Positions 35,101 to 38,100 of a stretch of DNA of 64,000 nucleotides are shown here, one piece after another; position 1 is the stretch's first letter, and each line of letters starts with the position of its first letter. Made by a program: the position numbers and the translations under genes. The notes below the pieces were generated by a model. The model was given only the letters and a program-made list of their open reading frames with translations, ran no database searches and had not been told where the DNA came from. The stretch spans positions 20,410,671-20,474,670 of the forward strand of contig NC_049987.1 in NCBI RefSeq assembly GCF_000003815.2, in the 5' to 3' direction. This DNA is from Branchiostoma floridae. Its lineage: Eukaryota; Chordata; Leptocardii; Amphioxiformes; Branchiostomatidae.

Positions 35101-38100
35101 AAGAATTCCAAAGAAAGTTCTGTAAAGTTTCTCAGTACCATAATCAAAACAGTAATTTTCTGTAGGTCTTACCTGATCAAACGCAGGGAAGATATAGTCT
35201 GCGAACTGTATCTCAGCGATGGCTGTAGCGCCCATCACCATATAATCACAAATACAACATTGATTCTACTATAAGTCTTGCCTGATCGAACGCAGGGAAG
35301 ATATAGTCTGCGAACTGTATCTCAGCGATGGCTGTAGCGCCCATAACCATATAGTCACAAATACAACATTAATTTTGCTATAGGTCTTACCTGATCGAAC
35401 GCAGAGAAGATCGATGTAATCTGCGAACTGTATCTCAGCGATGGCTATAGTGGCTATCACCATATAGTCACATATACAACATTATTTTTGCTATAGGTCT
35501 TACCTGATCAAACGCAGGGAAGATATAATCTGCGAACTGTATTTCAGCGATGGCTGTAGCGCCCATAACCATATCATCACAAATACAACATTAATTTTGC
35601 TATAAGTCTTACCTGATCAAACGCTGGGAAGATATAGTCTGCGAACTGTATCTCAGAGATGGCTGTAGCGCCCATCACCATATAGTCACAAACACTATAG
35701 TCATTTTCATATAAGTCTTACCTGATCAAAGGCAGGGAAGATATAGTCTGCGAACTGTATCTCAGCGATGGCTGTAGCACCCATAACTGCCATGCCGATC
35801 CCAAACCCAGCAATGCCCTGCTCACACAGAGGCGTGTTGAACACTCTGTCCTTGCCTGGCACATCAATGGGCAATATCAATCAATCAACCAATCAATTCT
35901 GTACTCTGTGTATCTATATAGTCGGTATAACTGCCCTTCGGCATACACCAGCTGGAGCACACAAACAAGTGATCAATAAATCAATCCTAAATAAAACCAA
36001 TGAAATATCCATAAATAAATCAAATGATCAATCAATCCTACCTAAAACTAATGAAATATCAATAGTTCACCAATCAATTATCATCTTTTATCAAAATCTA
36101 TGAAGATGTAGGAAATATCAATCAATACAGCAGCAAACAAGCAACAATCAATCTTTATCGACCTCAAGGGAAACCAAGAAAACACTAGAAAGACAACATT
36201 TTTGCAAAAAATAGTAGTACATCTCACTGAAAAAAGGGGTTGAACATGTCAAACAACTGTTTTCCCAGTTAGATGTATTGAATTGTTCTGCCAGTTCATT
36301 CTAGTAATGCTACAACAGAGTGAAGGATGTCATTTGAAATGTCCGGAAGTAAATCCCTGAATTCTATCCAGTTGTAGATATTAAACTACCAGTATTCTTT
36401 AACTGGATGTATAAGCTTCATAAACATATGAACGATATATCATTAATCGTTCAATATTCAAGCAGCCATCATTCTTTTCCCAGAAAAATTGAAAGTTTTT
36501 TCATATTTTCCCTTCCATCAGAACATTTTCCAGCAAATAATCCATCAGAGTTATACAATTCTCTCTCAAGTCTAGACTTTACATGCTGGCAACTGCCTTT
36601 AAAAAATAATTAGTAACTGAGTATGTCCGATGCAGTTCAAATAAAAACCATTCTGTTTTTTTCATCAAGACCTATCCAATGACATCAAGTTCAAAATATA
36701 TGGAGAATTTGGCTACGTATGGAACTTTCCGGCACTTGGGACATAGCACCCCCCCCCCCCCCGAGACAACACATTTAGCTCCTGCAACTAAAACAACAGG
36801 AGCTAATTGACTCATTTGCATTAACTGTGTCTTAGCCTTTTTTTCACATTGAAATCCAAAATTGTCTTCAGCTTGACTTTGCCTTGCTTTTGTTGCTATT
36901 GGAATCCAAATTGTCTTTAGCTTGACTTTGTCTAACAATGTCTCCTGTTGGACATCTAAAATTGTCTTCATTTATAGTTAGGGTATAAAAGGATCAGATC
37001 TTCCATATCTCTTCAGTGTCACTGACGAAAGATGGTGGATACCATCTGAAATGTCTGACCGTTTCCAAAATCATATCCAGTTGCTTGAGTAAAGTTCTGC
37101 TTTTTGGCATATCTTATTACCTGGACGTCTAACCTACATCAACGTATGGAGAATTTGAATTTCTTGTATCACACCCCTCATCAGACAGTGAAGAGGAACT
37201 TTATTGCACGACAATTGTATGTGATACAATGTATGGCATCAACTATAACACTAAGTACAAAACAATCATACCCAGCAGGTGGGTGGGTACAGTGTACCAG
37301 ATCTATCCTGACATTTGGATAAGAACCCAAGTGAGCCACTGGGCTCCTGGCAAGTCATGGAACTTAGGTCTGGGAAAATCAAAATTGTGTTTCTTATAAT
37401 GGATCTGACAAAACGAGGGTCAGATCAGACGGTCGAGATTTTATTTTCTTCCTTTTAAAGAGGTGATCCAACAACTAAAATGGAAAACTGATATGAATCA
37501 GGACACTGAAATATTCAACAGACATGTAGTACTACAAGTGCAGGTCTATCATAATCAATAAACTGATGAAAGAAGTACAATCTTTACAGTTTATTACACA
37601 TTTTTGCATCAGTTATTTAAAGCTGTAATCTGCTAAAAGAGTGTGAAATACCGGTACAGAAAGTCTGCTTTGAATTCCATCCCTCAAAATGTTGGATCAA
37701 AAATTGTATGTCTCTTGCCAGCAGTAGACTATAAAAAGAGCTAAAGTTGGCAGGTTTTTGCTAGGGTCAGTCGGGTAACAGGAAAAAACAATTTTCTTTC
37801 TTTGACCTTATTGTAAGGCCATGCCATGTCAATCTTCTTGGGTCTGAGAATTTAAAAGAATGAATATGATGCTAATCAGGAGTGAAAATAGAGTCTGGGG
37901 GCTGGAATCTGACTTTATTCACTCCCTGAATTGAAATAAACTGTTGGCAGTTGGCACAATACTCCATAGCATAAACCTGGTCCCTAAAGTCTTTCTATTG
38001 TTGCCAAGGAAGCTGGGAAAACGATGGACTCTTTGAACCCCTTTCTTCTTCCATACTCCGCATCTCAGGAGGAAGTTCCAAATCAAAAGCTTCCAACCTA

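Follow-up and report, generated by a model that had tools for sequence, protein, structure and literature searches.

Introduction

Among the closest described counterparts of the array analysed here are those in the globin genes of amphioxus, where exon-intron boundaries occur as minisatellite-like tandem copies called 'mirages', a term that stems from work on Adh3 (PMC3087553). According to the available portions of that report, many globin mirage units keep AG/GT signals, and the data suggest that regular splicing of the genes is undisturbed. The globin units measure 150-160 bp and 157 bp, the two haplotypes of BflGb6 hold three and six of them, and the authors suggest that mirage arrays may give rise to new introns (PMC3087553). 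A second gene is lancelet PGBD5, whose splice sites, according to the accessible text, carry repeats of 60 bp and 108 bp; the 108-bp repeat adjoins the exon 4 donor and is present in three or six copies depending on the genome source (PMC3902484).

A limited literature search found no paper that treats amphioxus and BCKDHB together, and the available part of PMC5896119, on G-protein alpha genes, has no bearing on the exon 4 array.

The BCKDHB Gene and the Exon 4 Array

The window, which is the whole 64-kb stretch of DNA analysed, carries exons 2-9 of BCKDHB in order on the minus strand. Judged from sequence similarity, the identity of the gene that carries the array is secure: the joined exons 4 and 5 match human E1-beta (1dtw_B) with an E of 3e-55 over 97 amino acids, in agreement with the gene call of an earlier first-pass annotation of this DNA. 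True exon 4 (134 nt, 35722..35855) ends in the donor CAG|GTAAGA, with 35721 as the first intron base. Exon 5 (34714..34869) begins at 34869 after the acceptor ATCTCAG|ATTGTG, and intron 4 between them is only ~850 nt long.

The donor edge of exon 4 is repeated in tandem. Six head-to-tail units, the true exon end counted, occupy 35148-35787 on the minus strand, and the remainder of the array lies inside intron 4. Over the same span TRF reports a period of 109, 5.8 copies, and 88% matches; the individual spacings are 109, 109, 113, 109, and 109. Each unit consists of the last ~66 nt of exon 4, the donor, and ~43 nt of intron, with only a partial intron part in the final unit (c5). All five minus-strand occurrences of CAGGTAAGA in the 64-kb window fall within this array.

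The exon-like part of copy c1 (35613..35678) differs from the true exon by one amino-acid change (A to S), and that of c2 lies at 35504..35569. Copy c3 (35391..35460) holds a 4-nt insertion that shifts its frame. The exon-like parts of c4 and c5 lie at 35282..35347 and 35173..35238, the array ending at 35148. On the minus strand, the exon-like parts end at 35722 (true), 35613, 35504, 35391, 35282, and 35173, and the donor is CAG|GTAAGA at all of these except 35282, where the GC-type CAG|GCAAGA is found. Between any two copies, 2-10 of the 66 exonic bases differ; changes confined to a single copy occur in several of them, the insertion being one. A search of the 513-Mb assembly with the array returned a single match, the array itself, and no second haplotype there.

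The exon-edge array is confirmed as real. Of the first-pass description, a ~110-bp unit present six times, containing the last 62 bp of exon 4 and spanning 35163..35855, the six units and the array stand, but the exonic part is ~66 nt and the extent reaches 35148. The retention of GTAAG in four of the five extra copies (the exception, at 35282, has GCAAG) and the lack, in the extra copies, of the real acceptor of exon 4, which falls outside the repeated unit, had both been read correctly.

Comparison with Described Mirages

Several of the features that mark a mirage are seen at this locus. The unit crosses an exon-intron edge, with ~66 nt from the end of exon 4 and ~43 nt of intron; the splice signal is retained in many of the units, though not in every one (five GT and one GC of six); and the genome is that of a cephalochordate in which globin arrays can be recovered. 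A globin profile search (PF00042) of the 513-Mb assembly gave nine loci, which served as positive controls. One (L071) has a 150-bp acceptor-side array and another (L067) a 157-bp donor-side pair, and their unit lengths and sides match those published for BflGb6 and BflGb9 of B. floridae in the available part of PMC3087553. This agreement speaks for B. floridae as the source of the DNA.

As far as that text describes them, BflGb6 and BflGb9 resemble the BCKDHB locus in having imperfect tandem copies of an exon-intron edge with splice signals, and in BflGb9 the 3' exon edge is copied too, as in BCKDHB. The gene is a different one, however, the BCKDHB unit is 109 bp, and in BflGb6 it is the acceptor side that is copied (PMC3087553). 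The repeat of PGBD5 is closer in form, with a unit of 108 versus 109 bp, a position beside an exon 4 donor, and imperfect copies; it belongs to an unrelated gene, and the portions available of PMC3902484 relate that a gene model made the PGBD5 copies into an exon without transcript support. The mirages of Adh3 (Canestro et al. 2002, as cited in the accessible text of PMC3087553 and PMC3902484) are likewise tandem repeats across exon-intron boundaries, with splicing reportedly undisturbed and with somatic length instability, but their units are 10-72 bp (PMC3087553). A wider parallel is intron gain by tandem genomic duplication (PMC4974935, in the part available), in that duplicated splice signals could make a new intron or exon out of array units; the BCKDHB array, in contrast, sits in an intron that was already present, and no gain of an intron is evident. 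On this comparison, the exon 4 array can be placed in the documented amphioxus mirage class, to which it adds BCKDHB as a further gene.

Both Edges of Exon 7 Are Duplicated

BCKDHB exon 7 (27768..27976, minus strand) has its acceptor edge and its donor edge each duplicated once, within the region 27476-28221. The donor-edge copy (27556..27664) comprises 25 codons followed by GTAACC..., is 96% identical over 109 nt, and lies 179 bp away; its 25 codons hold two amino-acid-changing differences and one silent difference. The acceptor-edge copy (28103..28221), which reads CCCCTCCACAG|TGGAGC..., is 77% identical over 119 nt and lies 169 bp away.

Array Coverage at Exon Edges

The three edge duplications of BCKDHB raise the possibility that exon boundaries are targeted. 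Edges were compared with surrounding DNA at 60 exon loci, the best 30 of 129 kinase (PF00069) matches and the best 30 of 118 P450 (PF00067) matches, each taken with 1500 bases of flank per side and scored for tandem duplications with offsets of 40-300 bp. Arrays cover 5033/180000 bases (2.8%) of the flanks, which may contain other exons, and 145/48528 bases (0.3%) inside the matches. Three of the 120 exon-match ends (2.5%; L032, L046, and L055) fall within an array, a rough figure, as the ends are those of profile matches rather than proven splice sites and many kinase matches look single-exon. In this small sample from one genome, arrays look no commoner at exon edges than elsewhere in noncoding DNA. 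Boundary targeting is unsupported, with 3/120 ends set against 2.8% coverage at the 60 loci. Since ends are hit about as often as flanks and arrays are rare inside matches, random local duplication, purged where it breaks exons, would suffice.

Several loci were left out of this count. The nine globin loci were omitted because they had been fetched as positive controls; under the same rule, 2/18 of their ends lie in arrays (L067 and L071). L001 and L002, which lie inside the window, were omitted as well, as was L072, a 9-kb myosin locus with seven exon matches (PF00063); L072 has two repeat pairs, neither overlapping a match, one of them starting 26 bases beyond a match.

For BCKDHB itself, three of 15 splice sites lie in duplications, against a window coverage of 4.7% that includes the BCKDHB arrays themselves (binomial P = 0.03, post hoc). 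By the strict rule the count is 2/15 (P = 0.15, post hoc), the third site being the acceptor of exon 7, with 64 bases between its copies. The exon 1 donor (41586) is not among the 15 sites. As the gene was chosen for its array, both figures lean high.

At L032 (1182-1550 and 1819-2398; kinase match C19:9613497), a duplication with an offset of 147 lies over the 5' end, and a looser listing gives copies 350-480 bp away at the 3' end; this locus is possibly another mirage. At L046 (2453-2810), a duplication with an offset of 183 lies over the 3' end of a P450 match, and at L055 (1447-1563) an exact tandem copy (59 bases, offset 58) is found at the 5' end of another.

Variation among the Copies

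Among the true exon and copies c1, c2, c4, and c5, seven of eight variable exonic sites are silent. Without the two sites at which none of the copies agrees with the true exon, 5/6 are silent, with P about 0.002-0.005 under no constraint. The excess is weaker when c3 is included, placed in register by skipping its 4-nt insertion (6/12 silent, P about 0.03-0.06). Comparison of each copy with the true unit, made for c1-c4 because the intron part of c5 is partial, favours exonic over intronic conservation in c2 (Fisher P 0.016) and c4 (P 0.005), weakly in c1 (P 0.076), and not in c3 (P 0.80). In the exon 7 donor copy, with its two changing differences and one silent, the silent bias is absent.

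The coding conservation of c1, c2, c4, and c5 exceeds what plain neutral decay predicts and does not sit easily with it. Turnover or homogenisation, with the selected true exon as its source, could produce the silent excess. Coding constraint on the copies was considered and set aside, given the low counts and an equally good explanation in exchange with the true exon.

Origin of the Array and Its Effect on Splicing

The exon 4 array is very probably an amphioxus mirage, that is, a neutral and splicing-silent by-product of frequent local tandem duplication. A segment of ~109 bp that chanced to span the boundary of exon 4 and intron 4 would have been duplicated locally in tandem, and unequal exchange or slippage would have enlarged the array to six units. 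Since the copies sit after the true donor, the true exon is intact and the copies are tolerable inside the intron. In splicing, exon 4 is most likely joined to exon 5 from the first donor (35722), the five extra donors most likely being silent under normal conditions, and the array is probably neutral. This reading is favoured because the array fits a documented class, exon-match ends are covered by arrays no more than flanks in the small sample of 60 loci, and the published mirage genes are said to splice normally in the available parts of PMC3087553 and PMC3902484. The duplicated edges of exon 7, the two globin arrays of the same assembly, the frame-shifting insertion in one copy, the GC donor in another, and the differences in the exon 7 donor copy are counted on the same side. 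Of the three options offered by the first-pass annotation, the neutral array is thus the one preferred, while decoy donors and a variant E1-beta find no positive evidence here; the annotation was right on anatomy and gene, and its interpretation as a whole is partly supported.

Decoy donors would tune BCKDHB output through use of a downstream donor, an early stop, and nonsense-mediated decay. Four extra donors match the true one at all nine bases of CAG|GTAAGA, the fifth being of the GC type, and each of the five, if used, is predicted by translation to add VRLI and then a stop, four codons on. Such a stop is usual for retained intron sequence, however, there is no sign here of selection keeping the donors, and the normal splicing attributed to the published mirage genes also speaks against tuning, which is very unlikely. 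Splicing the copies in as short exons, giving a variant E1-beta, is less likely still. The first-pass annotation had supposed that AG dinucleotides inside each copy would yield an in-phase exon of 33 nt (11 residues); this exon is open in four of the five copies and fails in c3, owing to the 4-nt insertion. The intronic parts of the copies also contain AGs, and with one of these, ending at 35266, an open in-phase exon of 93 nt would result. Over all AGs in the units, at least one in-phase open choice (30, 33, 39, 54, or 93 nt) exists in every one of the five copies, c3 too. The pyrimidine share before the AG of the 33-nt exon is 0.50-0.55, and before unit AGs giving any in-phase open exon it is 0.45-0.55; the true acceptors of exons 2-9 range over 0.50-0.85. 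As the share for the 33-nt exon is as low as that of exons 2 (0.50) and 4 (0.55), acceptor strength alone is no bar to a pseudo-exon, and the mostly silent variation of four copies would also suit this reading. Yet the other six acceptors have shares of 0.60-0.85, and the same AG occurs inside true exon 4, where it is presumably unused. The repeated residues, moreover, fall in a stretch nearly identical to human E1-beta, so that an insertion there would probably damage the enzyme.

Recursive splice sites consist of an acceptor-like AG joined to a donor. The copy ends, such as TTTGATCAG|GTAAGA, have this form, and a ladder of them might remove the intron stepwise with no trace in the mRNA. In the five extra copies, pyrimidines make up 0.65-0.70 of the 20 nt before the AG, a share inside the span of the eight true acceptors; of the 1170 minus-strand CAGs in the window, 17.9% reach 0.65. 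In each copy there are further AGs a short way upstream, the AG|GT pair came with the ordinary exon end that was duplicated, and an intron as short as intron 4 also weighs against a ladder, which has hardly any probability. With an open frame in four of the five, mostly silent variation, and ends in AG|GTAAG (one in AG|GCAAG), the copies might act as in-phase micro-exons or as a recursive ladder; that they are retained for a coding or splicing role of either kind is nevertheless highly improbable. An assembly artefact, by joined haplotypes or mis-resolved repeat reads, has precedents, as one published amphioxus mirage is described as misassembled in the draft genome and the repeat number of PGBD5 depends on the source (PMC3087553 and PMC3902484, in the parts available). 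The PGBD5 sequence was, however, upheld by re-examined and new reads, according to the accessible text of PMC3902484. The divergence and private changes of the BCKDHB copies are unlike the product of a simple repeated misjoin, and an artefact appears extremely improbable.

The exon 4 array brings BCKDHB into the amphioxus mirage class, with three edge duplications in one gene. By the rough measure at 60 loci of one genome, arrays strike exon-match ends no more often than the flanks. Should this be true of the whole genome, no edge-targeting mechanism is needed for mirages, and amphioxus would be a natural test bed for how the spliceosome selects one of several identical donors and for the gain of introns through tandem duplication.

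Other Repeats in the Window

Further tandem repeats lie elsewhere in the window. A 174-bp tandem pair occupies 20949-21288 in the last BCKDHB intron, away from exons. At 50100-50221, a 49-bp repeat of 2.7 copies sits where a minus-strand open frame closes with WEECYQIWYDYSDY and its stop at 50178; this may be a C-terminus copied onward together with its stop. Two ~120-bp copies (95%) at 54997-55234 lie between apparent exons and stop before the next open frame, in a gene that, from the appearance of its open reading frames, looks like an acyltransferase. A clean 55-bp repeat with eight copies and 93% matches is located at 17101-17540, outside any recognised gene.
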